A stretch of DNA of 64,000 bases from Cololabis saira (taxonomy: Eukaryota > Chordata > Actinopteri > Beloniformes > Belonidae). The stretch is taken from positions 10,517,343 through 10,581,342 of the forward strand of contig NC_084597.1 of the NCBI RefSeq assembly GCF_033807715.1, in the 5' to 3' direction. Below the pieces are notes generated by a model, which saw nothing but the letters and a program-made list of their open reading frames with translations, had not been told where the DNA came from and ran no database searches. Positions 3,423 to 64,000 of the stretch are shown here, piece after piece; position 1 is the first letter of the stretch, and every line of letters begins with the position of its first letter. The position numbers were made by a program, and so were the translations under genes.

Positions 3423-4648
<1,226 letters not shown>

Positions 4649-14350: not shown

Positions 14351-14352
14351 TA

Positions 14353-19493: not shown

Positions 19494-20176
<683 letters not shown>

Positions 20177-22033: not shown

Positions 22034-22502
22034 CCGTATTTTCTGGACTATAAGCTGCACCTGCATACAAGCCGCATCCGCTCTATTTAAAAAAAAAGAT
22101 ATGCAAGCCGCAGATATTTATGTTGTCAGATTAGATATTTACTACATGTACAGAAGGATTTTGAACTGTAAATGATGTACATGTTTGTACCTAAATAGAT
22201 CCTTTCCTAAGGATCTATTTAATCAGCAACTTTGCTGATTAAAACGGGACAGAACCAAGAGAAAATAAAATAAATAAGTATTTATTTATCTATTTATCTG
22301 TTTGAAATCTGCTTCTACTTCTATCTGCTAAAGAAGAAGTAGCGTATTCTTATTTGCATTTATTTTGTCTTAGTTTTTATTCTAATTACGGTTAGAGCGC
22401 CCCGAGTGGTGGAAGAAAAATCCATAGAAAAGCTGCACCTTTGTATAAGCCGCACGGTTGAATACCTATGAAAAAAGTAGCGGCTTATAGTCCAGAAAAT
22501 AC

Positions 22503-22504
<2 letters not shown>
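22034..22504. mobile_element. Inverted-repeat DNA element, TA-flanked, copy 2
   Basis: Starts CCGTATTTTCTGGACTATAA and ends in its exact complement (TTATAGTCCAGAAAATACGG), with TA on either side. It is collinear with 13811-14350, with one of the two leading GCCGCATCC repeats missing, so it is shorter. Both flanks are in TA repeats. Confidence 0.78.
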
Positions 22505-22595
<91 letters not shown>

Positions 22596-26561: not shown

Positions 26562-27436
<875 letters not shown>

Positions 27437-29939: not shown

Positions 29940-30857
<918 letters not shown>

Positions 30858-32489
30858 AATTAAAGCTGCAAGCAGCGATGAACGGGCCCTCGCACTCACG
30901 GCCACCGCCCCCCATAAGCATATCAGAAAAGACACCACCCACGACTTCCTATGTCAAACAATTAAAATGTTATAGCAGAAAAAAGGGACAACCAATCAGA
31001 AGAAGGGGCGGGGCTAGTTCACGCCAATGAAGGTCAAGGACTCCATAAAGAATCTGATGACACCAGCCACGACTCTCTATGTCAAACCATTCCAAAGTTT
31101 TAGCAGAAAATCGGGACAACCAATCAGAAGAAGGGGCGGGGCTAATTAAGGCCAACGAAGCTTAAGGACTCATTACAGAGTCCCATGACACCACCCACAA
31201 CTTCCTATGTCAAACCATTCAAAAGTTATGGCAGATAAAAGTATTCTAGGGGGCGCTGTTGAGCCGTTAGGCAACGCCCATTAATGCAAACCATGAAATA
31301 TCAAATTTATCGCCAAGTCTGTCTTGCATGCAAAATTTGGTGACTTTTGGAGAACTATCAAATATGGACCAATCAGATTTCAAAATGGCCGACTTCCTGT
31401 TCGGTTTCGGCCATGGCTCCAAGAGACTTTTCTTTAAGTTGTGACATGATACAGATGTGTAGCGATTTTCGTGCATGTACGTCGAACTGTATTGTGGGGC
31501 TTGAGGCACAAAGTTTTCCGGGGGGCGCTGTTGAGCCATTTTGCCACGCCCATTAATGCAAACCATGAAATATCAAATTTATCGCCAGGCCTGGCTTGCG
31601 TGCCAAATTTGGTGACTTTTGGGGAACTATCAAATATGGACCAATCAGATGAAGGGGGGCGCGCCTTATGGCGTCTAGCGTCGCCACGGTAACACTTTTG
31701 AAAGAGAAAAGTAATGCGTGTAGTCGCAGGATGAAGACGCACATGTTGATGTATAACACATCTGGGTTCACGATACGGTTAGGGCCGTATTAATTCTCGA
31801 AGGAATGGCATATATTGCTCCAAAATTACGCAATTAATTCAGATTGTTCAAAATGGCCGACTTCCTGTTCGGTTTCGGCCATGGCGCCAAGAGACTTTTC
31901 TTTTAGTTGCGACATGATACAGGTGTGTACCGATTTTCGTTCATGTACGTCAAACCGTATTATGGGGCTTGAGGCGCAAAGTTTTTTCTGTCAGAACCAA
32001 TCAGATGAAGGGTGGGCGCGCTTTTTGGCGTCTAGCGTCGCCACGGTAACGCTTTTGAAAGAGAAAAGTAATGCGTGGTGTCGGAGGATGGAGACGCACA
32101 TTTTGATGTATAACACACTTGGGGGCACGTTACAGTTCGGGCCGTATTAACTGCCGAAGGAATGGCATAAATTTCGGCAAAATGACACGATTAATTCAAA
32201 ATGACCGACATCCTGTTCGGTTTCGGGCACGGCACCAAGAGACTTTTCTTTAAGTTGCGCCATGATACAGGTGTGTACCGAATTTTGTGCATGTACGTCA
32301 AACCGTATCGTGGGGCTTGAGGCACAAAGTTTTCAAGGGGGCGCTGTTGAGCCATTTTGCCACGCCCATTAATGCGAACCATAAAATATCAAATTTTTCG
32401 CCAGGCCTGACTTGCGTGCAAAATTTGGTGACTTTTTGGGCATGTTTAGGGGGGCAAAAAGGCCTTCCTTTTGTCAGAAAAATAATAAT
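30858..32489. repeat. Array A, unit 1
   Basis: The head AATTAAAGCTGCAAGCAGCG is followed by GGGCCCTCGCAC (30884-30895), then a pair of 128-base CCAAT/GC-box modules, then several blocks of about 330 bases. Each of those opens with GGGGGCGCTGTTGAGCC or similar and includes GGCGTCTAGCGTCGCCACGG and GGAGACGCACA. It ends GTCAGAAAAATAATAATAAT, where the next head begins. The many short open frames on both strands are repeated non-coding sequence. Confidence 0.9.
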
Positions 32490-33150
32490 AATTAAAGCTG
32501 CAAGCAGCGATGAACGGGCCCTCGCACTCAAGGCCACCGCCCCCCATAAGCATATCACAAACGACACCACCCACGACTTCCTATGTCAAACCATTCAAAA
32601 GTTATAGCAGAAAAAAGGGACAACCAATCAGAAGAAGGGGTGGGGCTAATTCAGGCCAATGAAGGTCAAGGACTCCATACAGAATCTGATGACACCACCC
32701 ACGACTCTCTATGTCAAACCATTCCAAAGTTATAGCAGAAAATCGGGACAACCAATCAGAAGAAGGGGCGGGTCTAATTTGCACCAATTATGGTCAAGGA
32801 CTCAATACCGAGTCCGATGACACCACCCACGACTCTCTATGTCAAACCATTCAAAAGTTATAGCAGAAAAAAGTATTCTAGGGGGCGCTGTTGAGCCATT
32901 AGGCCACGCCCATTCATGATAACCATGAAATATCAAATTTATCCCCAGGCCTGGCTTGCATGCAAAATTTGGTGACTTTTGGAGAACTATCAAATATGGA
33001 CCAATCAGATGAAGGGGGCGCACTTTTTGGCGTCGAGTGTTGCCACGTTAACGCTTTTGAATGAGAAAAGTAATGGGCGTCGTCGCAGGAAGGAGACGCA
33101 CATGTTGATGTAAAAAAAAAGACACACAAATTGCTGACAATAATCCTTGC

Positions 33151-33222
33151 ATTGAGCTGGGATCGATCCCACGATCTCCCACACGAAAGACGGTGACATT
33201 ACCGCTGAGCCACGAATCAGCT
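33151..33222 (-). repeat. tRNA-like sequence (SINE head or tRNA pseudogene)
   Basis: On the minus strand TGGCTCAGCGGTAATGTCA matches the box A consensus, and GGGATCGATCCC, about 35 bases further, resembles box B. The anticodon arm has no clear 5-bp stem with a U33-type loop, so a functional tRNA is unlikely. A more degraded relative lies at about 33545-33602 (box-A-like part TAGCTCAGCTAGA on the minus strand), followed by a similar AT-rich tail with AATATTTGTAAG. Confidence 0.45.
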
Positions 33223-33796
33223 TGGCCATTTTCTGACTGACTGAGTTAGGAGATACCAACATAGCGATGTAATTTGAGTACCGAATTGTTTTTTCCTAAT
33301 TTTTAAAATATTTGTAAGATATAAATATTAGTAAAACCCCACTATTTGTTCTTTTGTGAATAGCATGTTCCAGTCTTTACTTCCTAGACACACACACTGC
33401 ATGGAAGGGAGCGTTTGATTTATTGTTCACGTAACATTACTTTTATTTTTTCACAACCAAACCACGCACTTTATTTATGTCATTTGCACCGGGCAAGGAC
33501 AAAAAATAAATGATTCCACCAAAATTCCAGAGATTTTTGTGGTTTTCTGGATATCTCACTCCAAAGACAGGAACGCTCTAGCTGAGCTAAGACTCAGCTA
33601 CTTATTTCAATTTGACCTACTGGCTTAGGACAGACCAACATATCGATATTTAGTGATGTAAGTCTTGGACTGTTTTTTTCTAATTTTTTTAAATATTTGT
33701 AAGTTATAAATAATAGTAAAACCCTACTATTTTAATTATTACTTTTTCTGTAACCATTCTGCCAAGGTTGTAACCGGGCTGAGCCGGGAATATTTA

Positions 33797-33972
33797 TGAC
33801 GTCACCACATTACAGGGAGCTGATTGGTCGGGGGGCGGGGCCGTCACCACCCTCCGCGCCACTGATTGGTCGGGGGCGGGGCCGTCATCACCCTACTCGC
33901 CACTGATTGGTCGGGGGGCGGGGCCGTCACCACCCTACTCGCCACTGATTGGTCGGGGGGCGGGGCCGGCAG
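33797..33972 (+). promoter_or_regulatory. CRE plus four reverse-CCAAT/GC-box repeats
   Basis: A perfect cAMP response element TGACGTCA (33797-33804) is followed by four tandem copies of a 41-42 base unit. Each has CTGATTGGTCGGGG and GGGCGGGGCC; ATTGG starts at 33823, 33865, 33906 and 33948. ATTGG is the reverse CCAAT box bound by NF-Y, and GGGGCGGGGC is an Sp1/KLF site. The content resembles a strong TATA-less promoter or enhancer. Whether it is active, and on which transcript, is unknown. Confidence 0.55.
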
Positions 33973-35410
33973 ACGTTTGAATCAGGAAGCGGGAGTCAGC
34001 GCGAGAGCGACTGGCGGCTCGTGGCGATTTTATTATAAAAAAGGGACAACCAATCAGAAGAAGGGGCGGGGCTAATTCAGGCCAATGAAGGTAAAGGACT
34101 CCATAAAGAATTTGATGACCCCACCCACGACTCCCTATGTCAAACCATTCCAAAGTTATAGCAGAAAATCGGGACAACCAATCAGAAGAAGGGGCGGGGC
34201 TAATTAAGGCCAACGAAGTTTAAGAACTCAGTAGAAAGTCCCATGACACCACCCACGACTCTCTATGTCAAACCATTAAAAAGTTATAGCAGAAAAAAGG
34301 GACAACCAATCAGAAGAAGAGGCGGGGCTAATTCTGGCCAATGAAGGTCAAGGACTCCATAAAGAATCTGATGACACCACCCACGACTTCCTATGTAGAA
34401 CCATTCAAAAGTTATGGCAGAGAAAAGTTTTCTAGGGGGCGCTGTTGAGCCGTTAGGCCACGCCCATTAATGCAAACCATGAAATATCAAATTTATCGCC
34501 AAGTCTGGCTTGCATGCAAAATTTGGTGACTTTTGGAGAACTATCAAATATGGACCAATCACATGAAGGGGGGGCGCGCTTTTTGGCGTCTAGCGTCGCC
34601 ACGGTAACACTTTTGAAAGAGAAAAGTAATGCGTGTAGTCGCAGGATGGAGACGCACATTTTGATGTATAACACATCTGGGTTCACGATACGGTTCGGGC
34701 CGTATTAATTCTCGAAGGAATGGCATATATTGCTCCAAAATTACGTGATTAATTAAGAATGTTCAAAATGGCCGACTTCCTGTTCGGTTTCGACCATGGT
34801 GCCAAGAGACTTTTCTTTTAGTTGCGACATGATACAGGTGTGTACCGATTTTCGTTCATGTACGTCAAACCGTATTCTGGGGCTTGAGGCGCAAAGTTTT
34901 TTCTGTCTGAACCAATCAGATGATGGGTGGGCGCGCTTTTTGGCGTCTAGCGTCGCCACGGTAACGCTTTTGAGAGAGAAAAGTAATGCGTGGTGTCGGA
35001 GGATGGAGACGCACATTTTGATGTATAACACACCTGGGTGCTCGTTACGGTTCGGGCCGTATTAACTGCCGAAGGAATGGCATAAATTTCGCCAAAATGA
35101 CACGATTAATTCAAAATGGCCGACATCCTGTTCGGTTTCGGGCATGACTCCAAGAGACTTTTCTTTAAGTTGTGCAATGATACAGGTGTGTACTGATTTT
35201 CGTGCATGTAGGTCAAACCGTATCGTTGGGCTTGAGGCACAAAGTTTTCCGGGGGGCGCTGTTGAGCCATTTTGCCACGCCCATTAATGCAAACTATAAA
35301 ATATCAAATTTTTCGCCAGGCCTGGTTTGCGTGCAAAATTTTGTGACTTTTTGGGCACGTTTAGGGGGGCAAAAAGGCCCTCCTTTCGTCAGAAAAATAA
35401 TAATAATAAT

Positions 35411-37486
35411 AATTAAAGCTGCAAGCAGCGATGAACGGGCCCTCGCACTCACGGCCACCGCCCCCCATAAGCAAATCAGAAAAGACACCACCCACGACTT
35501 CCTATGTCAAACCATTCAAAAGTTATAGCAGAAAAAAGGGACAACCAATCAGAAGAAGGGGCGGGGCTAATTCAGGCCAATGAAGGTCAAGGACTCCATA
35601 AAGAATCTGATGACACCACCCACGACTCTCTATGTCAAACCATTCAAAAGTTATAGTAGAAAATCGGGACAACCAATCAGAAGAAGGGGCGGGGCTAATT
35701 AAGGCCAACGAAGCTTAAGAACTCAGTACAAAGTCCCATGACACCACCCACGACTTCCTATGTCAAACCATTCAAAAGTTATAGCAGAAAAAAGGGACAA
35801 CCAATCAGAAGAAGGCGTGGCTAATTCTGGCCAATCAAGGTCAAGGACTCCATAAAGAATCTGATGACACCACCCACGACTCTCTATGTCAAACCATTCC
35901 AATGTTATAGCAGAAAATCGGGACAACCAATCAGAAGAAGGGGCGGGGCTAATTAAGGCCAACGAAGCTTAAGGACTCATTACAGAGTCCCATGACACCA
36001 CCCACGACTTCCTATGTCAAACCATTCAAAAGTTATGGCAGATAAAAGTATTCTAGGGGGCGCTGTTGAGCCGTTAGGCCACGCCCATTAATGCAAACCA
36101 TGAAATATCAAATTTATCGCCAAGTCTGGCTTGCATGCAAAATTTGGTGACTTTTGGAGAACTATCAAATATGGACCAATCACATGAAGGGGGGGCGCGC
36201 CTTTTGGCGTCTAGCGTCGCCACGGTAACACTTTTGAAAGAGAAAAGTAATGCGTGGTGTCGCAGGATGTAGACGCACATTTTGATGTATAACACACCTG
36301 GGTGCACGTTACGGTTCGGGCTGAATTAACTGCCGAAGGAATGGCATACATTTCGTCAAAATGACACAATTTATTCAAAATGGCCGACATCCTGTTCGGT
36401 TTCGGCCATGGCTCCAAGAGACTTTTCTTTAAGTTGTGCCATGATACAGGTGTGTAGCGATTTTCGTGCATGTACGTCAAACCGTATTGTGGGGCTTGAG
36501 GCACAAAGTTTTCCGGGGGGCGCTGTTGAGCCGTTAGGCTACGCCCATTAATGCAAACCATGAAATATCACATTTATCCCCAGGCCTGGCTTGCATGCCA
36601 AATTTGGTGCCTTTTGGGGAACTATCAAATATGGACCAATCAGATGAAGGGGGGGTGCGCTTGTTGGCGTCTAGCGTCGCCACGGTAACACTTTTCAAAG
36701 AGAAAAGTAATGCGTGTAGTCGCAGGATGGAGACGCACATTTTGATGTATAACACATCTGGGTTCACGATACGGTTCGGGCTGAATTAACTCTCGAAGGA
36801 ATGGCATATATTGCCCCAAAATTACGCAATTAATTCAGAATGTTCAAAATGGCCGACTTCCTGTTGGGTTTTGGCCATGGCGCCAAGAGACTTTTCTTTT
36901 AGTTGCGACATGATACAGGAGTGTACCAATTTTCGTTCATGTACGTCAAACCGTATTATGGGGCTTGAGGCGCAAAGTTTTTTCTGTCTGAACCAACCAG
37001 ATGAAGGGTGGCCGCGCTTTTTGGCGTCTAGCGTCGCCACGGTAACGCTTTTGAAAGAGAAAAGTAATGCGTGTGGTCGCAGGAGGGAGACGCACATTTT
37101 GATGTATAACACACCTGGGTGCACGTTACGGTTCGGGCTGAATTAACTGCCGAAGGAATGGCATAATTTGCGCCAAAGTGACAGGATTAATTCAAAATGG
37201 CCGACTTCCTGTTCGGTTTCTCGACATGACGCCCAGAGACTTTTCTTTAAGTTGTGACATGATACAGGTGTGTACCGATTTTCGTGCATGTACGTCAAAC
37301 CGTATCATGGGGCTTGAGGCACAAAGTTTTCAAGGGGGCGCTGTTGAGCCACTTTGCCACGCCCATTAATGCAACCCATGAAATATCAAATTTTTCGCCA
37401 GGCCTGACTTGGGTGCAAAATTTGGTGACTTTTTGGGCATGTTAAGGGGGGCAAAAAGGCCATCACTTTGTCAGAAGAAAAATAAT
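35411..37486. repeat. Array A, unit 3
   Basis: Head at 35411, four or so 128-base CCAAT/GC-box modules (35480-36030), then blocks of about 330 bases to the AAT-rich end at 37481-37488. Confidence 0.9.
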
Positions 37487-39822
37487 AATTAAAGCTGCAA
37501 GCAGCAATGAACGGGCCCTCGCACTCACGGCCACCGCCCCCCATAGGCATATCAGAAATGACACCACCCACGACATCCTATGTCAAACCATTGAAAAGTT
37601 ATAGCAGAAAAAAGGGACAACCAATCAGAATAAGGGGCGGGGCTAATTCAGGCCAATGAAGGTCAAGGGCTCCATAAAGAATCTGATGACACCACCCACG
37701 ACTCTCTATGTCAAACCATTCCAAAGTTATAGCAGAAAATCGGGACAACCAATCAGAAGAAGGGGCGGGGCTAATTAAGGCTAACGAAGCTTAAGGACTC
37801 ATTACAGAGTCCCATGGCACCACCCACGACTTCCTATGTCAAACCATTGAAAAGTTATAGCAGAAAAAAGGGACAACCAATCAGAAGAAGGGGCGGGGCT
37901 AATTCAGGCCAATGAAGGTCAAGGGCTCCATAAAGAATCTGATGACACCACCCACGACTCTCTATGTCAAACCATTCCAAAGTTATAGCAGAAAATCGGG
38001 ACAACCAATCAGAAGAAGGGGCGGGGCTAATTAAGGCTAACGAAGCTTAAGGACTCATTACAGAGTCCCATGGCACCACCCACGACTTCCTATGTCAAAC
38101 CATTCAAAAGTTATAGCAGAAAAAAGGGACAACCAATCAGAAGAAGGGGCGGGGCTAATTCAGGCCAATGAAGGTCAAGGGCTCCATAAAGAATCTGATG
38201 ACACCACCCACGACTCTCTATGTCAAACCATTCCAAAGTTATAGCAGAAAATCGGGACAACCAATCAGAAGAAGGGGCGGGGCTAATTAAGGCCAACGAA
38301 GCTTGAGGACTCATTACAGAGTCCCATGACACCACCCACGACTCTCTATGTCAAACCATTCAAAAGTTATGGCAGAGAAAAGTATTCTAGGGGGCGCTGT
38401 TGAGCCGTTAGGCCACGCCCATTAATGCAAGCCATGAAATATCAAATTTATCACCAGGCCTGGCTTGCATGCAAAATTTGGTGACTTTTGGAGAACTATC
38501 AAATATGGACCAATCAGATGAAGGGGTGGCGCGCCTTTTGGCGTCTAGCGTCGCCACGGTAACACTTTTGAAAGAGAAAAGTAATGCGCGTAGTCGCAGG
38601 ATGGAGACGCACATTTTGATGTATAACACACTTGGGGAAACGTTACGGTTCGGGCTGAATTAACTGCCGAAGGAATGGCATAAATTTCGCCAAAATGACA
38701 CGATTAATTCAAAATGGCCGACATCCTGTTCGGTTTCGGGCATGACCCCAAGAGACTTTTGTTTAAGTTGCGCCATGATACAGGTGTGTACCGATTTCCG
38801 TGCATGTACGTCTAACAGTATTGTGGGGCTTGAGGCACAAAGTTTTCAAGGGGGCGCTGTTGAGCCATTTTGCCACGCCCATTAATGCAAACCATTAAAT
38901 ACCAAATTTTTCGCCAGGCCTGGCTTGGGTGCAAGATTTGGTGCCTTTTGGGGAACTATCAAATATGGACCAATCACATGAAGGGGGGGTGCGCTTGTTG
39001 GCGTCTAGCGTCGCCACGGTAACACTTTGGAAAGAGAAAAGTAATGCGTGTAGTCGCAGGATGTAGACGCACATTTTGATGTATAACACATCTGGGTTCA
39101 CGATACGGTTCGGGCTGAATTAATTCTCGAAGGAATGGCATATATTGCTCCAAAATTACGCGATTAATGCAGAATGTTCAAAATGGCCGACTTCCTGTTT
39201 GGTTTCGGCCATGGCGCCAAGAGACTTTTCTTTTAGTTGCGACATGATACAGGTGTGTACCGATTTTCGTTCATGTACGTCAAAGCGTATTATGGGGCTT
39301 GAGGCGCAAAGTTTTTTCTGTCTGAACCAAATAGATTGAGGGTGGGCACGCTTTTTGGCGTCTAGCGTCGCCACGGTAACGCTTTCGAAAGAGAAAAGTA
39401 ATGCGTGGGGTCGGAGGATGGAGTCGCACATTTTGATGAATAACACACTTGGGGGAACGTTACGGTTCGGGCTGAATTAACTGCCGAAGGAAGGCATAAA
39501 TTTCGCCAAAATGACACGATTAATTCAAAATGGCCGACTTCCTGTTCGGTTTCTCGACATGACGCCAAGAGACTTTTCTTTAAGTTGCGCCATGATACAG
39601 GTGTGTACCGATTTTCGTGCATGTACGTCAAACCGTATCGTGGGGCTTGAGGCACAAAGTTTTCAAGGGGGCGCTGTTGAGCCATTTTGCCACGCCCATT
39701 AATGCAAACTATTAAATATCAAATTTTTCGCCAGGCCTGACTTGCATGCAAAATTTGGTGACTTTTTGGGCACGTTTAGGGGGGCAAAAAGGCCTTCCTT
39801 TTGTCAGGAAAATAATAATAAT
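37487..39822. repeat. Array A, unit 4
   Basis: Head at 37487. It carries three near-identical 256-base dimers (37560-38330) followed by about 330-base blocks, closing in AATAATAATAATAATT. Confidence 0.9.
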
Positions 39823-42541
39823 AATTAAAGCTGCAAGCAGCGATGAACGGGCCCTCGCACTCACGGCCACCGCCCCCCATAAGCATATCAGAAATGACAC
39901 CACCCACGACTTCCTATGTCAAACCATTGAAAAGTTATAGCAGAAAATCGGGACAACCAATCAGAAGAAGGGGCGGGGCTAATTCAGGCCAATGAAGCTT
40001 AAGGACTCATTACAGAGTCCCATGACACCACCCACGACTTCCTACGTCAAACCATTCAAAAGTTATAGCAGAAAAAAGGGACAACCAATCAGAAGAAGGG
40101 GCGGGGCTAATTCAGGCCAATGAAGGTCAAGGACTCCATACAGAATCTGATGACACCACCCACAACTATCTATGTCAAACCATTCAAAAGTTACAGCAGA
40201 AAATCGGGACAACCAATCAGAAGAAGGGGCGGGGCTAATTCAGGCCAATGAAGCTTAAGGACTCATTACAGAGTCCCATGACACCACCCACGACTTCCCA
40301 CGTCAAACCATTCAAAAGTTATAGCAGAAAAAAGGGACAACCAATCAGAAGAAGGGGCGGGGCTAATTCAGGCCAATGAAGGTCAAGGACTCCATACAGA
40401 ATCTGATGACACCAACCACGACTCTCTATGTCAAACCATTCCAAAGTTATAGCAGAAAATCGGGACAACCAATCAGAAGAAGGGGCGGGGCTAATTAAGG
40501 CCAACGAAGCTTAAGGACTCATTACAGAGTCCCATGACACCACCCACGACTTCCTACGTCAAACCATTCAAAAGTTATAGCAGAAAAAAGGGACAACCAA
40601 TCAGAAGAAGGGGCGGGGCTAATTCAGGCCAATGAAGGTCATGGACTCCATACAGAATATGATGACACCACCCACAACTATCTATGTCAAACCATTCAAA
40701 AGTTATAGCAGAAAATCGGGACAACCAATCAGAAGAAGGGGCGGGGCTAATTAAGGCCAACGAAGCTTAAGGACTCATTACAGAGTCCCATGACACCACC
40801 CACAACTTCCTATGTCAAACCATTCAAAAGTTATGGCAGAGAAAAGGGACAACCAATCAGAAGAAGGGGCGGGGCTAATTCAGGCCAATGAAGGTCAAGG
40901 GCTCCATAAAGAATCTGATGACACCACCCACGACTCGCTATGTCAAACCATTCCAAAGTTATAGCAGAAAATCGGGACAACCAATCAGAAGAAGGGGCGG
41001 GGCTAATTAAGGCCAACGAAGCTTGAGGACTCATTACAGAGTCCCATGACACCACACACGACTCTCTATGTCAAACCATTCAAAAGTTATGGCAGAGAAA
41101 AGTATTCTAGGGGGTGCTGTTGAGCCGTTATGCCACGCCCATTAATGCAAGCCATGAAATATCAAATTTATCGCCAGGCCTGGCTTGCATGCAAAATTTG
41201 GTGACTTTTGGAGAACTATCAAATATTGACCAATCACATGAAGGGGGGGCGCGCCTTTTGGTGTCAGCGTCGCCACGGTAACACTTTTGAAAGAGAAAAG
41301 TAATGCGCGTAGTCGCAGGATGGAGACGCACATTTTGATGTATAACACACTTGGGGACACGTTACGGTTCGGGCTGAATTAACTGCCGAAGGAATGGCAT
41401 AAATTTCGCCAAAATGACACGATTAATTCAAAATGGCCAACATCCTGTTCGGTTTCGGGCATGACCCCAAGAGACTTTTGTTTAAGTTGCGCCATGATAC
41501 AGGTGTGTACCGATTTTCGTGCATGTACGTCTAACCGTATTGTGGGGCTTGAGGCACAAAGTTTTCAAGGGGGCGCTGTTGAGCCATTTTGCCACGCCCA
41601 TTAATACAAACCATTAAATACCAAATTTTTTGCCAGGCCTGGCTTGGGTGCAAAATTTGGTGCCTTTTGGGGAACTATCAAATATAGACCAATCAGATGA
41701 AGGGGGGGTGCGCTTGTTGGCGTATAGCATCGCCACGGTAACACTTTTGAAAGAGAAAAGTAATGCGTGTAGTCGCAGGGTGGAGACGCACATTTTGATG
41801 TATAACACATCTGGGTTCACGATACGGTTCGGGCTGAATTAATTCTCGAAGGAATGGCATATATTGCTCCAAAATTACGCGATTAATGCAGAATGTTCAA
41901 AATGGCCGACTTCCTGTTCGGTTGCGGCCATGGCGCCAAGAGACTTTTCTTTTAGTTGCGACATGATACAGGTGTGTACCGATTTTCGTTCATGTACGTC
42001 AAAGCGTATTATGGGGCTTGAGGCGCAAAGTCTTTTCGGTCTGGACCAATCAGATGAAGGGTGGGCACGCTTTTTGGCGTCTAGCGTCGCCACGGTAACG
42101 CTTTTGAAAGAGAAAAGTAATGCGTGGGGTCGGAGGATGGAGACGCACATTTTGATGTATAACACACTTGGGGGAACGTTACGGTTCGGGCTGAATTAAC
42201 TGCCGAAGGAAGGCATAAATTTCGCCAAAATGACACGATTAATTCAAAATGGCCGACTTCCTGTTCGGTTTCTCGACATGACGCCCAGAGACTTTTCTTT
42301 AAGTTGCGCCATGATACAGGTGTGTACCGATTTTCGTGCATGTACGTCAAACCGTATCGTGGGGCTTGAGGCACAAAGTTTTCAAGGGGGCGCTGTTGAG
42401 CCATTTTGCCACGCCAATTAATGCAAACCATTAAATATCAAATTTTTTGCCAGGCCTGACTTGGGTGCAAAATTTGGTGACTTTTTGGGCATGTTAAGGG
42501 GGGCAAAAAGGCCATCACTTTGTCAGAAGAAAAATAATAAT
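39823..42541. repeat. Array A, unit 5 (innermost)
   Basis: Head at 39823. About nine 128-base modules in a strict 256-base dimer rhythm (39895-41095), then the about 330-base blocks. It is the only A unit whose body runs directly into an A tail, after TCAGAAGAAAAATAATAATA. Confidence 0.9.
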
Positions 42542-42720
42542 AAGAAGAAAAATTCCTGCAAATACAATAGGGCCTTCGCACTGAAGGTGCTCGGGCCCTA
42601 ATAATAAAAATTCCTACAGATACAATAGGGCCTTCGCACTGAAGGTGCTCGGGCCCTAATAACGCGAAGAATTCCTACAGATACAATAGGGCCTTCGCAC
42701 TGAAGGTGCTCGGGCCCTAA
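42542..42720. repeat. Array A tails, three tandem copies of ~60 bases
   Basis: Each copy contains AATTCCT(A/G)CA, ATACAATAGGGCCTTCGCAC and TGAAGGTGCTCGGGCCCTAA, at about 42550-42600, 42608-42660 and 42669-42720, separated by AAT-rich or AACGCG spacers. The final GTGCTCGGGCCC is inversely complementary (10 of 12) to GGGCCCTCGCAC in the A heads. AGGGCC and GGCCCT can pair to form a hairpin. Confidence 0.85.
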
Positions 42721-50433: not shown

Positions 50434-50594
50434 CTAGACAAAATTCCCGGGAAATTTTGAAGTGCCACGGACTACTGCCGGATGATCGCGGGGCTTATTT
50501 GCACCCATGAAGGTCAAGGACTCGATACTTAGTCATTTGACACCACCCATGACTCTCTATGTCAAACCATTCAAAAGTTATTACAGAAAATATG

Positions 50595-52555: not shown

Positions 52556-52559
52556 TAAC

Positions 52560-52779
52560 ACTACCATCCCATAATAAACACCTACCATCCCATAATAACA
52601 CTAACATCCCATAATAACACTAACATCCTATAAAAACACCTGCCATCCCATAATAACACTAACATCCTATAAAAACACCTGCCATCCCATAATAACACTA
52701 AAATCCTATAAAAACACCTGCCATCCCATAATAACACTAACATCCTATAAAAACACCTGCCATCCCATAATAACACCTA

Positions 52780-52780
<1 letters not shown>
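52560..52780. repeat. 39-bp minisatellite, unit C1
   Basis: Tandem copies containing ACACTAACATCCTATAAAAA and CACCTGCCATCCCATAAT, with period 39. Confidence 0.93.

Positions 52781-52781
<1 letters not shown>

Positions 52782-52849
<68 letters not shown>
52782..52849. repeat. GT microsatellite, unit C1
   Basis: About 34 GT units between the 39-bp minisatellite and the conserved 3' part of unit C1. Confidence 0.97.
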
Positions 52850-52850
<1 letters not shown>

Positions 52851-54065
52851 CATCTAAGGTTAAAAGGTCAGGGTTCAGATTTCTCCATGAAGTCTGTACT
52901 GAGTGAGTCATGTGACCAGTTCTGGGTCAGCCTAATCAGTCAACAGCTGAGCTCCGGTTGCTAGGGGCAACAAGAACCTGATACAGAGGGAGCGGGAATG
53001 ATTCAGCTGGATTTTCGGTTGTGACAAACCTGAAATCACTCCACTTTGCGCTCAAACCGTAGCTCTTAGCAGAAAAACGAAAACATTTTGAGAAACAGAG
53101 AACCTACCAGATTATCTAAATGTTATTTTTATACAGATATTCCTTAAAATGTGTTAGTAACGGCAATTCGAAAACAAAAATGAGATTTTTTTGAAGAAAA
53201 CTTCATTTAACATGGGACTCAATGGAGAGCGATACAGGATTTGGCGTGTCTGTTGGGCCCCCCGTTAAAATTGTGTGCACACCACGCCTGTCAAAGTCAC
53301 ATTTTATGAATCACAACACCTATGTCTATATTCTGACCAAAAATGATCTGTCTACCTTTTACGGTTTGGCCGTGACCTCGAGTTACAAATAAGAAATCAT
53401 GTTTTTTTTTCAGTGTAACTACACTCTAGCAAACTGACTCCCGTGCTCTAGATTTGAAAAAAAGTGATTTCCAGTCCTCGCTTGAGGGCTCATATCTTGA
53501 AAAGTGTACATTTTAGGAAAAAACAGTCCGGGGTTTGGAGAGAGAGGAGAAGTTTTCCTCCGTTTTGAAGTTTGAATGACGTTTCTACGTGCAAGTATGA
53601 GAAAGATATGTGACTCGGAAAAAAGGTGAATTTTGTCTTTTTTTTCTCGACATTCTCCCATCCGCTTTGAATGGGCCCATACAAATACATGGGGAAATCT
53701 CCCCATTAGTTTGGAAATTTTGAAATGTTTTTGCACTTCGTGCAAAAACCATTCGTGCCATCGTTCTGAAAATCCACAGGACTGTAGTTAAATTCAGGGC
53801 CTACAACTTTCTAAATCGGTTCAGAATTTTTCGAGTAACGGTGTGCGAGTGGTGAGGCCCCAAACTTCTCGCAATGCGTTCCGGATGGGGCAAAAAGCGC
53901 ACGTTTGTGCACGTTGCGCAAAAACGTGCACGCCAATCGCTAATAAAAGTCATACCCATCGATTCCCGATTAAGGCGCACGTTTCTACGTTTTTACTTTT
54001 CGCGTTTTCTCAAAGCTGTGGGACTAGTTACGCGCCGAAGTTTTTACGGAAGAATAAATAAATAA

Positions 54066-55483
54066 CTAGACAAAATTCCCGGGAAATTTTGAAGTGCCAC
54101 GGACTACTGCCGGGTGATCGCGGGGCTTATTTGCACCCATGAAGGTCAAGGACTCGATACAGATTCCAATGACACCACCCATGACTCTCTATGACAAACC
54201 ATTCAAAAGTTATTACAGAAAATATGTAATAGGCTAATAGAACCGCTAACAAGACCGCTAACGGGACCGCTAACGGGATAGCTAACAGAACCGCTAAAGG
54301 GACCTCTAACAGGATCGCTAACTGAACCGCTGACGGGATCGCTAAAGGGATCGCTAACGGGACCGCTAACGGGACCGCTAACAGAATTGCTAACCGAGCC
54401 GCTAACAACCGCTAACGGAACCGCTAACGGGACCGCTAATGGGGCCGCTAATGGGATCGCTAACGGAACCGCTAACGGGGCCGCTAACGGGACCGCTAAC
54501 GGGATCGCTAACGGGATCGCTAACCGAGCCACTAACGGAATCGCTAACCGAGCCGCTAACAACCGCTAACGGGGCCGCTAACGGGATCGCTAACGGGATC
54601 GCTAATGGGACCGCTAACCGAGCCGCTAATGGGGTCGCTAACGGGACCGCTAACAACCGCTAACGGAACCGCTAACGGGACCACTAACAGAACCGCTAAC
54701 GGGACCGCTAACGGGATCGCTAACAACCGCTAGCGGAACCGCTAACGGGACCGCTAATGGGATTGCTAACGGGACCGCTAACGGGGTCGCTAACTGGACC
54801 GCTAACGGGATCGCTAACGGGACCGCTAACGGGACCGCTAACGGAATCGCTAACTGAACCGCTAACGGGACCGCTAACGGGACCGCTAACCGAGCCGCTA
54901 ACGGGATCGCTAACGGGATCGCTAACGGGATCGCTAACAACCGCTAACGGGATTGCTAACGGGACCGCTAACGGGGTCGCTAACTGGACCGCTAACGGGA
55001 TCGCTAACTGGACCGCTAACGGGACCGCTAACGGGATCGCTAACAGGACCGCTAACAGAACCGCTAACGGGACCGCTAACACCAATAACACTACCATCCC
55101 ATAATAACACTAACATCCCATAATAACACTAACATCCTATAAAAACACCTGCCATCCCATAATGACACTAACATCCTATAAAAACACCTGCCATCCCATA
55201 ATAACACTAACATCCTATAAAAACACCTGACATCCCATAATAACACTAACATCCTATAAAAACACCTGCCATCCCATAATAACACTAACATCCTATAAAA
55301 ACACCTGCCATCCCATAATAACACTAACATCCTATAAAAACACCTGCCATCCCATAATAACACTAACATCCTATAAAAACACCTGACATCCCATAATAAC
55401 ACTAACATCCTATAAAAACACCTGACATCCCATAATAACACTAACATCCTATAAAAACACCTGACATCCCATAATAACACCTA

Positions 55484-55558
<75 letters not shown>

Positions 55559-56795
55559 CATCTAAGGTTAAAAGGTCAGGGTTCAGATTTCTCCATTTTC
55601 CAGGTTATACTATGAAGTATGTACTGAGTGAGTCATGTGACCAGTTCTGGGTCAGTCTAATCAGTCAACAGCTGAGCTCTGGTTGCTAGGGGCAACAAGA
55701 ACCTGATACAGAGGGAGCAGGAATGACTCAGCTGGATTTTCGGTTGTGACAAACCTGAAATCACTCCACTTTGCGCTCAAACCGTAGCTCTTAGCAGAAA
55801 AACGAAAACATTTTGAGAAACAGAGAACCTACCAGATTATCTAAATGTTATTTTCATACAGATATTCCTTAAAATGTGTTAGTAACGGCAATTCGAAAAC
55901 AAAAATGAGATTTTTTTTAAGAAAATGTTTTTTTAACATGGGACTCAATGAACAGCGAGACAGGAATTGGCGTATCTGTTGGCTCCCCCGTTAAAATTTT
56001 GTGCACACCACGCCTGTCAAAGTCACATTTTATGAATCACAACACCTATGTCTATATTCTGACCAAAAATTATCTGTCTACCTTTTACGGTTTGCCCGTG
56101 AGCTCGAGTTACAAATAAGAAATCATGTTTTTTTTTCAGTGTAACTACACTCTAGCAAACTGACTCCCGTGCTCTAGATTTGAAAAAAAGTGATTTCCAG
56201 TCCTCGCTTGAGGGCTCATATCTTGAAAAGTGTACATTTTAGGAAAAAACAGTTTCGGGTTTGGAGAGAGAAGAGAAGTTTTCCTCCGTTTTGAAGTTTG
56301 AATGACGTTTCTACGTGCAAGTATGAGAAAGATACGTGACTCAGAAAAAAGGTGAATTTTGTCTTTTTTTTCTCAACATTTTCCCATCCGCTTATAATGG
56401 CGCCATTGAAATGCATGGGAAAATCTTCCCCATTAGTTTGGAAATTTGGAAATGTTTTTGCACTTCGTGCAAAAACTATTCGTGCCATCGCTCTGAAAAT
56501 CCACAGGACTGTAGTTAAATTCAGGGCCTACAACTTTCTAAATCGGTTCAGAATTTTTCGAGTAACGGTGTGCGAGTGGTGAGGCCCCAAAGTTCACGCA
56601 ATGCGTTCCGGATGGGGCAAAAAGCGCACGTTTGTGCACGTTGCGCAAAAACGTGCACGCCAATTGCTTATAAAAGTCATACCCATCGATTCCCGATTAA
56701 GGCGCACGTTTCTACGTTTTTACTTTTCGCGTTTTCTCAAAGCTGCGGGACTAGTTACGCGCCGAAGTTTTTACGGAAGAATATGGAATAATAAA
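54066..56795. repeat. Array C, unit 2
   Basis: Same order as unit C1: head with AGTGCCACGG at 54093-54102, 12-bp minisatellite (54238-55080, shorter), 39-bp minisatellite (55085-55480, about ten copies), GT run (55485-55557), and conserved 3' part. Confidence 0.92.
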
Positions 56796-58548
56796 CTAGA
56801 CAAAATTCCCGGGAAATTTTGAAGTGCCACGGACTACTGCCGGATGATCGCGGGGCTTATTTGCACCCATGAAGGTCAAGGACTCGATACAGATTCCAAT
56901 GACACCACCCATGACTCTCTATGTCAAACCATTCAAAAGTTATTACAGAAAATATAGAACCGCTAACTGAACCGCTAACGGGATCGCTAACGGGATCGCT
57001 AACGGGACCGCTAACGGGACCGCTAACCGAGCCGCTAACGGGATCGCTAACCGAGCCGCTAACAACCGCTAACGGAACCGCTAACGGGACCGCTAACGGG
57101 ACCGCTAACGGAACCGCTAACGGGACCGCTAACGGGACCGCTAACGGGACCGCTAACAGGATCGCTAACGGGATCGCTAACGGGACCGCTAACCGAGCCG
57201 CTAACGGGATCGCTAACCGAGCCGCTAACAACCGCTAACGGAACCGCTAACGGGACCGCTAACGGAACCGCTAACGGGACCGCTAACGGGACCGCTAACG
57301 GGATCGCTAACGGGATCGCTAACGGGATCGCTAACGGGATCGCTAACGGGATCGCTAACGGGAACGCTAACCGAGCCGCTAATGGGATCGCTAACGGGAC
57401 CGCTAACAACCGCTAACAGAACCGCTAACGGGACCGCTAACAGAACCGCTATCAGAACCGCTAACGGGATCGCTAACAACCGCTAGCGGAACCGCTAACG
57501 GGACCGCTAATGGGATTGCTAACGGGACCGCTAACGGGGTCGCTAACTGGACCGCTAACGGGATCGCTAACTGGACTGCTAACGGTACCGCTAACAGGAT
57601 CGCTAACGGAATCGCTAACTGAACCGCTAACGGGACCGCTAACCGAGCCGCTAACGAGATTGCTAACCGAGCCGCTAATGGGATCGCTAACGGGACCGCT
57701 AACAACCGCTAACGGAACCGCTAACAGGACCGCTAACAGAACCGCTAAAAGAACCGCTAACGGGACCGCTAACGGGATCGCTAACGGGATCGCTAACAAC
57801 CGCTAGCGGAACCGCTAACGGGACCGCTAACGGGGTCGCTAACTGGACCGCTAACGGGATCGCTAACTGGACCGCTAACGGGACCGCTAACGGGATCGCT
57901 AACGGAATCGCTAACTGAACCGCTAACGGGACCGCTAACGGGATCGCTAACAACCGCTAGCGGAACCGCTAACGGGACCGCTAACGGGGTCGCTAACTGG
58001 ACCGCTAACGGGATCGCTAACTGGACCGCTAACGGGACCGCTAACGGGACCGCTAACGGGATCGCTAACGGAATCGCTAACTGAACCGCTAACGGGACCG
58101 CTAACCGAGCCGCTAACGGGATCGCTAACCAAGCCGCTAACGGGATCGCTAACGGGATCACTAACAACCGCTAACGGGACCGCTAACGGGATTGCTAACG
58201 GGACCGCTAACGGGGTCGCTAACTGGACCGCTAACGGGATCCATTACTGGACCGCTAACGGGACCGCTAACGGGATCGCTAACAGGACCGCTAACAGAAC
58301 CGCTAACGGGACCGCTAACACCAATAACACTACCATCCCATAATAAACACCTACCATACCATAATAACACTAACATCCCATAATAACACTAACATCCTAT
58401 AAAAACACCTGCCATCCCATAATAACACTAACATCCTATAAAAACACCTGCCATCCCATAATAACACTAACATCCTATAAAAACACCTGACATCCCATAA
58501 TAACACTAACATCCTATAAAAACACCTGTCATCCCATAATAACACCTA

Positions 58549-58609
<61 letters not shown>

Positions 58610-59843
58610 CATCTAAGGTTAAAAGGTCAGGGTTCAGATTTCTCCATTTTCCAGGTTATACTATGAATTCTGTACTGAGTGAGTCATGTGACCAGTTCTG
58701 GGTCAGTCTAATCAGTCAACAGCTGAGCTCTGGTTGCTAGGGGCAACAAGAACCTGATACAGAGGGAGCGGGAATGACTCAGCTGGATTTTTGGTTGTGA
58801 CAAACCTGAAATCACTCCACTTTGCGCTCAAACCGTAGCTCTTAGCAGAAAAACGAAAACATTTTGAGAAACAGAGAACCTACCAGATTATCTAAATGTT
58901 ATTTTCATACAGATATTCCTTAAAATGTGTTAGTAACGGCAATTCGAAAACAAAAATGAGATTTTTTTTAAGAAAACTTCATTTAACATGGGAGTCAATG
59001 AAGAGAGAGACAGGAACTGGCGTGTCTGTTGGCTCCCCCGTTAAAATTTTGTGCACACCACGCCTGTCAAAGTCACATTTTATAAATCACAACACCTATG
59101 TCTATATTCTGACCAAAAATTATCTGTCTACCTTTTACGGTTTGGCCGTGACCTCGAGTTACAAATAAGAAATCATGTTTTTTTTTCAGTGTAACTACAC
59201 TCTAGCAAACTGACTCCCGTGCTCTAGATTTGAAAAAAAGTGATTTCCAGTCCTCGCTTGAGGGCTCATATCTTGAAAAGTGTACATTTTAGGAAAAAAC
59301 TGTTTCGGGTTTGGAGAGAGAAGAGAAGTTTTCCTCCGTTTTGAAGTTTGAATGACGTTTCTACGTGCAAGTATGAGAAAGATACGTGACTCAGAAAAAA
59401 GGTGATTTTTTTTTTTTTTTAACCTCCTCCCACCCAAAGTGTGAAATGCTGCCCCATACAAATACATGGGAAAATCTCCCCATTAGTTTGGAAATTTGGA
59501 AATGTTTTTGCACTTCGTGCAAAAACTATTCGTGCCATCGTTCTGAAAATCCACAGGACTGTAGTTAAATTCAGGGCCTACAACTTTCTAAATCGGTTCA
59601 GAATTTTTCGAGTAACGGTGTGCGAGTGGTGAGGCCCCAAACTTCACGCAATGCGTTCCGGATGGGGCAAAAAGCGCACGTTTGTGCACGTTGCGCAAAA
59701 ACGTGCACGCCAATCGCTAATAAAAGTCATACCCATCGATTCCCGATTAAGGCGCACGTTTCTACGTTTTTACTTTTCGCGTTTTGTCAAAGCTGTGGGA
59801 CGAGTTACGCGCCGAAGTTTTTACGGAAGAATAAATAAATAAA
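56796..59843. repeat. Array C, unit 3
   Basis: Same order: head, 12-bp minisatellite (56955-58320), 39-bp minisatellite (58322-58548), GT run (58551-58608), and conserved 3' part to the AAATAAATAA junction. Confidence 0.92.
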
Positions 59844-62350
59844 CTAGACAAAATTCCCGGGAAATTTTGAAGTGCCACGGACTACTGCCGGATGATCGCG
59901 GGGCTTATTTGCACCCATGAAGGTCAAGGACTCGATACTTAGTCATTTGACACCACCCATGACTCTCTATGTCAAACCATTCAAAAGTTATTACAGAAAA
60001 TATGTAATAGGCTAATAGAACCGCTAACAAGACCGCTAACGGGACCGCTAACGGGATAGCTAACAGAACCGCTAACGGAACCTCTAACGGGATCGCTAAC
60101 TGAACCGCTAACGGGATCGCTAAAGGGATCGCTAACGGGACCGCTAACGGGACCGCTAACCGAGCCGCTAACGGAATCGCTAACCGAGCCGCTAATAACC
60201 GCTAACGGAACCGCTAACGGGACCGCTAACGGGACCGCTAACGGGACCGCTAATGGGATCGCTAACGGAACCGCTAACGGGACCGCTAACGGGACCGCTA
60301 ACAGTACCGCTAACAGAACCGCTAACTGAACCGCTAACGGGATCGCTAACGGGATCGCTAACGGGACCGCTAACCGAGCCGTTAACGGAATCGCTAACCG
60401 AGCCGCTAACAACCGCTAACGGGACCGCTAACGGGACCGCTAACGGGACCGCTAATGGGATCGCTAACGGAACCGCTAACGGGACCGCTAACGGGACCGC
60501 TAACGGGATCGCTAACGGGATCGCTAACGGAGCCGCTAATGGGGTCGCTAACGGGACCGCTAACAACCGCTAACGGAACCGCTAACAGGACCGCTAACAG
60601 AACCGCTAACTGAACCGCTAACGGGATCGCTAACGGGACCGCTAACCGAGCCGCTAACGGAATCGCTAACCGAGCCGCTAACAACCGCTAACGGAACCGC
60701 TAACGGGACCGCTAACGGGATCGCTAACGGAACCGCTAACGGGACCGCTAACGGGACCGCTAACGGGATCGCTAACGGGATCGCTAACGGGACCGCTAAC
60801 CGAGCCGCTAACGGGATTGCTAACGGGATCGCTAACAACCGCTAACGGGATTGCTAACGGGGTCGCTAACTGGACCGCTAACGGGATCGCTAACTGGACC
60901 GCTAACGGGATCGCTAACAGGACCGCTAACAGAACCGCTAACGGGACCGCTAACACCAATAACACTACCATCCCATAATAAACACCTACCATCCCATAAT
61001 AACACTAACATCCTATAAAAACACCTGCCATCCCATAATAACGCTAAAAACCTTAAAAAAACACCTGCCATCCCATAATAACACTAACATCCTATAAAAA
61101 CACCTGCCATCCCATAATAACACTAACATCCTATAAAAATAAAATGGGGATCATGTAAGGTCAGGGTTCAGATTCCTCCATTATCCAAGGTAAAGTATTA
61201 TGAAGTCTGCATTGATGTGTCATGTGACCAGTTCTGGGTCACATGACCCGGAAGTATGGTAGTGTATATTGTATTGGAATGACTCAGCTAGTTTTTTGGA
61301 TTTGACAAGCCTCAAATAACTTCACCTTGTAATCAAACTGTAGCTCCTATCAGAAAAACAAAGACATCGTGAGAGAGACAGAACCCGGAAGATTCTGACA
61401 ATCTTAATTTTATTCAGATATTCCTTAAAATGTGTTAGTAACGGCAATTCGAAAACAAAAATGAGATTTTTTTGAAGAAAACTTCATTTAACATGGGAGT
61501 CAATGAAGAGACAGACAGGAATTGGCGTGTCTGTTGGCTCCACCGTTAAAATTTTGTGCACACCACGCCTGTGAAAGTCACATTTTATAAATCACAACAC
61601 CTATGTCTATATTCTGACCAAAAATGATCTGTCTACCTTTTACGGTTTGGCCGTGACCTCGAGTTACAAATAAGAAATCATGTTTTTTTTTCAGTGTAAC
61701 TACACTCTAGCAAACTGACTCCCGTGCTCTAGATTTGAAAAAAAGTGATTTCCAGACCTCGCTTGAGGGCTCATATCTTGAAAAGTGTACATTTTAGGAA
61801 AAAACAGTCCGGGGTTTAGAGAGAGAAGAGAAGTTTTCCTCCGTTTTGAAGTTTGAATGACGTTTCTACGTGCAAGTATGAGAAAGATACGTGACTCTGA
61901 AAAAAGGGGAAATTTTGTCTTTTTTCTCGACATTTTCCCATCCGCTTTGAATGGCGCCATAGGAATACATGGCAAAATGGTCTCCCCATTAGTTTGGAAA
62001 TTTGGAAATGTTTTTGCACTTCGTGCAAAAACTATTTGTGCCATCGCTCTGAAAATCCACAGGACTGTAGTTAAATTCAGGGCCTACAACTTTCTAAATC
62101 GGTTCAGAATTTTTCGAGTAACGGTGTGCGAGTGGTGAGGCCCCAAAGTTCACGCAATGCGTTCCGGATGGGGCAAAAAGCGCACGTTTGTGCACGTTGC
62201 GCAAAAACGTGCACGTCAATCGCTAATAAAAGTCATACCCATCGATTCCCGATTAAGGCGCACGTTTCTACGTTTTTACTTTTCGCGTTTTCTCAAAGCT
62301 GTGGGACTAGTTACGCGCCGAAGTTTATACGGAAGAATAAATAAATAAAG
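59844..62350. repeat. Array C, unit 4 (innermost)
   Basis: Head and 12-bp minisatellite (60018-60955), 39-bp copies (60960-61135), but the GT run is absent. The next part (61140-61400) is noticeably diverged from the other three units, then returns to the conserved sequence. Its body runs directly into the first C tail (AATAAATAAAGAAGCCTGAG). Confidence 0.9.
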
Positions 62351-62814
62351 AAGCCTGAGCAATAGTATGAGTGCCTCGTGCTGCGCACGAGGCACTCCTC
62401 CTCCATTGAGCTTGCGCATCTCAATGGAGGAGGAGTGCCACGTGGCGCAGCCGTGGCACTAATAATAAGCCTGAGCAATAGTAAGAGTGCCTCGTGCTGC
62501 GCACGAGGCACTCCTCCTCCATTGAGCTTGCGCAGCTCAATGGAGGAGGCGTGCCACGTGGCGCAGCCGTGGCACTAATAAGCCTGAGCAATAGTATGAG
62601 TGCCTCGTGCTGCGCACGAGGCACTCCTCCTCCATTGAGCTTGCGCATCTCAATGGAGGAGGAGTGCCACGTGGCGCAGCCGTGGCACTAATAATAAGCC
62701 TGAGCAATAGTATGAGTGCCTCGTGCTGCGCACGAGGCACTCCTCCTCCATTGAGCTTGCGCAGCTCAATGGAGGAGGCGTGCCACGTGGCGCAGCCGTG
62801 GCACTAATAATAAT
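62351..62814. repeat. Array C tails, four tandem ~116-base triple-hairpin units
   Basis: Units start GCCTGAGCAATAGTA at 62353, 62469, 62582 and 62698. Each has three consecutive hairpins: a 12-bp stem (GAGTGCCTCGTG, loop CTGCG), a 13-bp stem (CTCCTCCATTGAG, loop of 9) and an 8-bp stem (GTGCCACG). The unit ends CCGTGGCACT, the exact inverse complement of AGTGCCACGG in the C heads, then AATAATAA. Confidence 0.9.
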
Positions 62815-63540
62815 AAGAAAAGGGAAACCTTTTCTAGATACTAATATATCGCCTTCATTTTCATGTTTTTCCTCCTTTTTTCGGCCGTGTTTTACTTTTT
62901 GGGGATTTTTTTTTCCCACATCAGTGCGGGGTCATGCTGTACACCCGCTGGTGCGCAGTGGGACTTTTGCGACTTTAGCATGCTAGCAGCATTGCCCTTT
63001 GGGCCATTCTGGACGATTGCAATATGGTCATGCCACTACTTGGCATGCCCATAATAATAATAAGAAAAGGGAAACCTTTTCTAGATACTAATATATCGCC
63101 TTCATTTTCATGTTTTTCCTAATTTTTTCGGCCGTGTTTTACTTTTTGGGGATTTTTTTTTTCCACATCAGTGCGGGGTCATGCTGTACACCCGCGGGTG
63201 CGCAGTGGGACTTTTGCGACTTTAGCATGCTAGCAGCATTGCCCTTTGGGCCATTCTGGACGATTGCAATATGGTCATGCCACTACTTGGCATGCCCATA
63301 ATAAGAAAAGGGAAACCTTTTCTAGATACTAATATATCGCCTTCATTTTCATGTTTTTCCTCATTTTTTCGGCCGTGTTTTACTTTTTGGGGATTTTTTT
63401 TTTCCACATCAGTGCGGGGTCATGCTGTACACCCGCTGGTGCGCAGTGGGACTTTTGCGACTTTAGCATGCTAGCAGCATTGCCCTTTGGGCCATTCTGG
63501 ACGATTGCAATATGGTCATGCCACTACTTGGCATGCCCAT
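62815..63540. repeat. Array B tails, three tandem ~240-base units
   Basis: Copies start AAGAAAAGGGAAACCTTTTC (itself a hairpin) at 62815, 63062 and 63303 and are nearly identical. Each ends TTGGCATGCCCAT followed by an AAT-rich spacer (or AACTAG after the third). GGCATGCCCAT is the exact inverse complement of ATGGGCATGCC in the B heads, which is why I assign them to family B. CATGCCACTACTTGGCATG forms a 7-bp terminal hairpin. Confidence 0.85.
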
Positions 63541-63542
63541 AA

Positions 63543-64000
63543 CTAGAAAATTTCTGGAAATTTTGATATGGGCATGCCCTACCGCCCATTCGTCCCCTCT
63601 CGCCGCTTTGGTTTTGGGCTGTAGTGGTTGTGTTTGGGGTGGTTCTATGTCAGTTTGAGGTGTTTTTACACTTGTATTTCATTCATTCCTGTGCTCCCGA
63701 TAGTTATTAATGGGGCGCGCTTTTTGGCATCTAGCGTTGCCACGGTAACGCTTTTGACTGAGAATAGTAATGCCCTTCGAGGCAAGATGGAGACGCATCT
63801 AACGATGTATGCCTTGCATGGGTGCATGTTCCGGTTCAGGCTACGTTAACGGATAGGTTTTTTTTTTCACCATAGTACAAAACCCCATCCGAATGAATGG
63901 GGCCATTTGGCCTGGATTTTGACATAACATTTCCTTAAATGCCAGCTTCATGAAATTTGAGTATGTTGAAGTCCACAGCGTGCCGAGTCAGGGGACATTT
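63543..64000. repeat. Array B, sixth unit, cut by the window end
   Basis: Begins CTAGAAAATTTCTGGAAATT and follows the B unit (closest in wording to the unit at 48897) through GGCATCTAGCGTTGCCACGG to the window end, so the B array continues outside. Confidence 0.92.

Follow-up and report, generated by a model that had tools for sequence, protein, structure and literature searches.

The stretch of DNA considered here is a 64,000 nucleotide (nt) window of the Cololabis saira genome (assembly GCF_033807715.1, contig NC_084597.1, positions 10,517,343 to 10,581,342 of the forward strand), which hosts an array of approximately 33 kb (30858..64000; all coordinates are those of the window) made up of three repeat families, termed A, B and C, with their ends stacked as nested brackets. 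The array is probably situated inside an intron of a JNK-type mitogen-activated protein (MAP) kinase gene, after the exon containing the HSAGIIHR stretch, and runs antisense to the gene. From position 30858 onwards there are 15 repeat units termed 'heads' (five A, six B and four C) and ten shorter units termed 'tails' (three A, four C and three B), in the block order A heads, A tails, B heads, C heads, C tails, B tails and one further B head (Table 1). The numbers of heads and tails per stack are 5/3 for A, 5/3 for B and 4/4 for C. The positions and order of these units, first described in a sequence-only reading of the window, were recovered in full; that reading recognised neither that the elements run on the minus strand nor their class.

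Element ends and classification

All the elements are orientated on the minus strand, such that the 'tails' are 5' terminal units and the 'heads' are 3' ends. Each is arranged with a motif at the 5' tip, contained in a hairpin, within a unit of approximately 50 nt (A), 110 nt (C) or 236 nt (B), which is followed by an AAT-type microsatellite and the body; the inverse of the motif is then found 24-29 nt from the 3' tip, ahead of a putative small palindrome and the tip itself, which is CTAGTT in both B and C. The microsatellite behind the 5' unit is present as an AAT or AAAT tract in A and C, and as two half-tracts in B. The head and tail motifs are exact inverse complements at 11 of 11 bases in B and 10 of 10 in C, neither being found elsewhere in the window, and agree at 10 of 12 bases in A, the tails of which lack the exact inverse complement of the head motif. 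When the tail sequences were shuffled, inverted matches between head and tail ends as long as the longest exact match observed were reached in just 5 of 10,000 cases for B (11 nt) and 16 of 10,000 for C (10 nt). The 5' units, one or two of which were folded per family, place the motif in a stem, with z-scores of -3.3 and -3.6 for B, -1.9 and -2.2 for A, and -11.2 for C. The C unit in question (62696-62806) is nearly wholly self-complementary, at -49 kcal/mol over 111 nt, and a fold of this kind could itself favour duplication.

Comparisons with published systems draw here on excerpts of the cited papers. In Helitron2 elements, the 5' asymmetric terminal inverted repeat (ATIR) forms the tip and takes part in a hairpin, and a second hairpin immediately follows the 3' ATIR, which is situated approximately 20-30 nt from the end (PMC3627910); the 5' motifs at this locus likewise pair with downstream bases, and the 3' motifs lie at a similar distance from the tip, ahead of a putative hairpin. 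One Helitron2 family has a target reported as following TTTT. HINEs are characterised by subterminal inverted repeats (subTIRs), a 3' palindrome and a TT target (PMC4067079), with those of oysters having a left flank composed of the 5' subTIR, an inverted repeat and a microsatellite, and a right flank composed of the 3' subTIR and palindrome (PMC7492417). The elements of this array share with HINE and DINE-1 elements the short subTIRs, central tandem repeats, a paired or palindromic 5' end backed by a microsatellite, and a tendency to cluster, and possibly also a 3' palindrome and a T-rich target (PMC4067079, PMC7492417). They differ in having the 3' motif closer to the tip than the approximately 38-60 nt of mite HINEs. 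A further difference is that their 5' units and their bodies are stacked apart from each other on the element's own microsatellite, an arrangement that the excerpts do not describe.

The end plan is that of a non-autonomous Helitron2/Helentron (HINE) element, so that each type of head goes with its tail, in support of the proposal that they represent two ends of the same elements. On the basis of their sequence, the three families are on balance probably non-autonomous rolling-circle transposons with ends of this type, for which the transposase would be supplied in trans. They also look like related families: in a comparison of a single copy of each, A4 shares stretches of 131-141 bp with B5 at 71-77% identity, and stretches of 103-104 bp at 77-82% plus one of 53 bp at 87% with C4, with B5 and C4 having only 35 bp in common (83%). 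Cut-and-paste and retrotransposon classes were set aside by inference from the end structure. It is very improbable that the blocks are ordinary satellites, either as adjacent unrelated minisatellites or in an order created by assembly artefact. The units are tandem and partly homogenised, and the array is known from the assembly rather than from reads; however, the exact inverted tips of B and C, specific to each family and present at the tips of both blocks, were grounds for rejecting unrelated minisatellites, and the 5'-tip hairpin and the presence of a B half-tract on either side of C also count against this explanation.

The bodies carry internal repeats. The 128 bp central repeats of A (30931-41102) tend to lengthen inward, with Tandem Repeats Finder (TRF) identifying 2.4 copies in the first body, 2.4 and 3.1 in the broken second, then 4.4, 6.4 and 9.4; TRF also detects a double period of 254-256 bp in the inner three. 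A2 (32492-35412) is not a single clean body, as its left part ends near 33107 and a headless second A piece restarts near 34037, the two being separated by approximately 930 bp of unrelated DNA (33107-34040). This insert, which includes a 184 bp direct repeat (73% identity) and a 42 bp minisatellite, looks like another repeat element. All C copies contain 12 bp and 39 bp central repeats, and three of the four a GT tract, which is absent from the fourth. TRF called no array in B, which contains just an internal duplication of around 400 bp at about 82% identity. Only two of the listed open reading frames (ORFs) in the arrays are of at least 150 aa, both of them minus-strand frames of the 12 bp repeats; the one scanned had only a below-cut-off match in Pfam.

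Searches of prokaryotic, viral and plasmid collections, in which a null result is expected for such elements, found no match to the exact A head pattern in viral or genome contigs, to a degenerate B/C head pattern in viral contigs, or to one A unit in plasmids. Five short sequence words from the elements occur in no paper of the literature searched.

Joints and AAT tracts

It had been proposed that new heads join at an AAT-rich stretch. Such a tract lies directly before 12 of the 15 heads. Of the other three, A1 is set in ordinary flanking sequence, and B1 and the B head at 63541 adjoin an A tail and a B tail, respectively. All joints are at element tips; those between body and head retain the part of the tract next to the body, and those between tails the part next to the tail. 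In B and C, CTAGTT lies against either ATT or another 5' tip at the joints, and at the A-B and B-B joints the 3' tip lies directly against a 5' tip. A decayed A tail to the left of A1 was considered as a candidate and dropped, as 237 of 2,000 shuffled sequences scored equally well.

The C stack is flanked by both halves of the AAT tract of B, bearing out the earlier suggestion that it lies within a B element, and no uninterrupted B tract is left in the window. These half-tracts are good evidence that the AAT tract acts as a landing site. Since the joints fall at element tips and both sides of the B tract flank C, insertion into the tract did happen, most clearly in the case of C into B; insertion of a family into its own tract most simply occurred once per family.

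A stricter explanation, proposed with the original description of the array, is that repeated self-insertion alone produced the stacks. Each copy would have entered the innermost tract, splitting the site and bringing a fresh one, such that the brackets grew inward. The exact tips at the joints in all three families and the position of C in the B tract are consistent with this, and a rule that only intact sites are used would account for there being no head between tails or between bodies. It also has a precedent in Fusarium, where self-insertion has been proposed as the source of several 5' termini in Helitron2-type elements (PMC5148889). Like those of this array, the repeated 5' units of these FoHeli elements are short (< 200 bp); they differ in having several 5' ends with a single 3' end, whereas here bodies and 3' ends are also stacked, in three families, one of which is nested. 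However, the numbers of heads and tails are unequal in both A and B, and some half-tracts are longer than the innermost tract yet carry no further copy (12, 15 and 18 nt against 11 nt in A; in C, the half-tracts are 8-11 nt against 11 nt, and none in either family holds another copy). Taken with the divergence data below, these observations make it rather unlikely that self-insertion alone was responsible, although it is the most plausible of the alternatives.

Self-insertion occurring purely at random, with every AAT tract a possible target, was rejected, as it is unlikely to generate the bracket order: in simulations, the probability of a clean bracket was 0.333 with three copies, 0.066 with four and 0.0097 with five, an argument that loses force if only the intact tract is a target. 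A related and similarly doubtful idea is that these are rolling-circle transposons carrying their own landing site, whereby the whole tract between the 5' unit and the body would be the target, each insertion would destroy and renew it, brackets would form strictly inward, and families sharing a tract would stack.

Divergence and growth of the stacks

In B and C, the tails are more alike than the bodies. The B tails differ by a mean of 1.1%, relative to 7.2% for the 3'-terminal 236 nt of the B heads, and the C tails by 1.7%, relative to 4.1% for the head tips over 110 nt; the A tails, over approximately 50 nt, differ by 2.8%, against 8.8% for the tract-side ends of the A bodies. Body comparisons left out the minisatellites of C, and A2 was trimmed to 34424-35412 owing to the foreign DNA to its left. 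Under bracket pairing in B, nine of the ten order-preserving assignments of tails to bodies were rejected because the tails are too alike (p up to 0.0016 under a naive Poisson model). Similarly, the C tails have 11 differences, with about 28 or 43 expected from bracket pairing when the first 420 aligned bases are respectively excluded or included, a naive Poisson comparison of non-independent pairs.

The four C tails read as one pair repeated, with units 1 and 3 identical and units 2 and 4 one base apart. The groupings of the C bodies do not match this pattern: at 23 informative sites, C1 groups with C4 at 14, with C3, as predicted from the bracket, at five, and with C2 at four. C4 is approximately 75% identical to the other C copies over the first 200 aligned bases and 83-85% over the next 200. 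The paired tails would suit a two-tailed composite inserted twice, as might arise through errors of rolling-circle replication, in which ends are skipped, or copying begins at an outer 5' tip and ends at the first 3' tip reached, such that composites with several 5' ends or bodies form during transposition and land ready-made. Chimeric Helitrons with two 5' termini have been proposed in Fusarium (PMC5148889), and a review (PMC12628747) recounts tandem Helitron arrays in plants that, like those described here, are rolling-circle elements with repeated ends; many of these differ in that several 5' ends share a single 3' end, and are ascribed to rolling-circle amplification of truncated templates. 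Nevertheless, a composite with two tails and two bodies, inserted into another of its type, predicts that C1 should group with C3 and C2 with C4, as seen at only 5 of the 23 sites, and replication error alone does not give multiple bodies with intact 3' tips. It is therefore an improbable origin for the array.

The B bodies also bear on exchange between copies. B2-B4 are mutually 97.8-99.0% identical, and the edge copies B1 and B5 are 94.2-96.3% identical to them, a pattern of alike centre and divergent edges as expected for arrays grown by unequal exchange. B5 is a mosaic: of the 60 sites that set B1 apart from a letter common to B2-B4, it follows B1 at 20 and B2-B4 at 40, with all 20 of the B1-like sites falling up to a switch near alignment column 373. 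None of 5,000 permutations gave a break as strong, in a test where the sites are not fully independent because changes cluster. The B copy outside the stack, at 63541, was compared in a second alignment. It is B1-like at 27 of the 35 sites that precede or include column 373, and at two of three beyond, where B5 is B2-B4-like; the two alignments differ near columns 328-336, hence their respective totals of 28 and 35 sites in the part that ends at that column.

The explanation we favour, with moderate confidence, is that the array is a cluster of three HINE-type families in each of which at least one self-insertion was followed by unequal exchange, through which the 5' units and the bodies multiplied separately. 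The AAT tract of each element would be its favoured landing site, and a copy landing in the tract of another member of its family would generate the order 5' unit, 5' unit, body, body, with exact tips at each joint. Thereafter 5' units would misalign only with 5' units and bodies only with bodies, as homology would be left only within each group, such that unequal exchange would lengthen and homogenise the two blocks separately without mixing them; C would later have landed in the tract of B. This accounts together for the exact tips, the order, the unequal counts and the homogeneous tails. Insertion into an AAT tract between body and tail is thus retained from the sequence-only reading, but not its corollary that every stacked copy represents an insertion of its own, which the unequal counts, the greater similarity of B and C tails than of bodies, the paired C tails and the mosaic B5 make unnecessary.

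A number of observations weigh against this explanation. When the tract-side ends of the bodies are used as a control, the excess of body over tail divergence shrinks to 3.2% against 1.1% in B and 2.3% against 1.7% in C, and the A tails are more divergent than the A head tips (2.8% against 1.6% over approximately 50 nt). The one assignment of B tails to bodies that was not rejected, to B4, B3 and B2 (p = 0.15), fits bracket pairing, although the outermost B body should keep the outermost tail, which counts against it. Mosaic copies could predate insertion, having arisen among copies elsewhere in the genome, and constraint on 5' units could keep the tails alike. The linkers between C tails are AATAAT or AAT, unlike the AAAT type of the innermost C tract. 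As regards class, the inverted match of A is not significant in isolation by this measure, its longest exact run of 6 nt being reached by 3,666 of 10,000 shuffled sequences. Folding of short segments gives only modest 3' palindromes (z-scores of -2.5 for C, -1.7 for B and -0.2 for A, which has a 4 bp stem) and folding of longer ones weaker values (-1.6, -1.3 and +0.5 respectively). Unlike in Helitron2, no Rep/helicase gene was seen here.

Helitron clusters and tandem arrays (PMC4067079, PMC12628747), as well as proposed self-insertion, are already known, and the bracketed two-block layout is a variant of these. No description of this layout was found in the excerpts of PMC3627910, PMC4067079, PMC5148889, PMC7492417, PMC12628747 and PMC11136912, a result that is no proof of its absence; the nearest was a statement in PMC12628747 mentioning Pacific oyster loci with tandemised Helitron parts inside other elements, which are shuffled, unlike the clean bracket per family observed here. 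If the favoured explanation is correct, there is a simple path from transposon to satellite-like arrays, in which a single landing in an element's own microsatellite duplicates each end side by side and recombination then grows each block. It would also offer a testable layout for the origin of Helentron-type elements with multiple termini, in a vertebrate and within a gene. Given other loci, the order and relatedness of the ends can distinguish repeated self-insertion from recombination.

Table 1. Coordinates of the repeat units, blocks and tracts of the array
Feature	Position	Strand	Description
A heads	30860, 32492, 35413, 37489, 39825	-	Minus-strand elements
A tail motif	42587, 42645, 42706
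B heads	42719, 44263, 45809, 47355, 48895, 63541
B tail motif	63042, 63289, 63530
C heads	50432, 54064, 56794, 59842
C tail motif	62451, 62567, 62680, 62796
A stack	30858..42540	-	Five units of 3' end and body; 128 bp central repeats; second unit interrupted by ~930 bp of unrelated sequence
A tract between body and 5' unit	42533..42543	-	AAT; only uninterrupted one; innermost landing site
A 5' terminal units (three)	42541..42718	-	~50 nt each plus linkers; two folded, hairpin includes 5' inverted motif
B stack	42719..50431	-	Five units of 3' end and body, ~1.54 kb; AAT tracts between
C bodies	50432..62350	-	Four units of 3' end and body; 12 bp, 39 bp and (GT)n central repeats; situated inside AAT tract of B
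C tract between body and 5' unit	62339..62349	-	AAAT type; only uninterrupted one
C 5' terminal units (four)	62351..62805	-	110 nt cores; one folded, strongly self-complementary
B 5' terminal units (three)	62806..63540	-	236 nt cores, AAT linkers; first linker matches tail-side half of B tract
Further B element	63541..64000	-	3' end and partial body; adjoins B 5' terminus; continues past window edge

Host locus and surroundings

The JNK-type kinase was identified from plus-strand exons whose translated pieces, at 26872-26997 and 30182-30319, had MAPK10 as the top match and MAPK8 as the second in a search against solved structures (best E values of 8e-23 and 2e-25). Further putative kinase pieces at 19644 and 27479 were recognised by short motifs. 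The array is placed in the following intron because DLKPSN, the next conserved kinase stretch, was not found within the 64 kb window.

Comparison of the window to the left of the array (1-30857) with the remainder (30858-64000) by BLAST, with the low-complexity filter on, gave no match at 1e-3. No match to Rfam was found at gathering scores, and ARAGORN predicted no tRNA. Other repeats are present outside the array: an inverted pair of approximately 690 bp at 94% identity (1524-2217 and 20194-20876), a direct repeat of approximately 465 bp at 90% identity (13889-14352 and 22049-22506), and a long (TTCT)n/(TCCT)n tract (1-727) with a repetitive open frame on its minus strand. A fragment of a DDE transposase, which we read as Tc1/mariner-like, lies at 4001-4498 (Pfam DDE_3, E value 1.7e-14).

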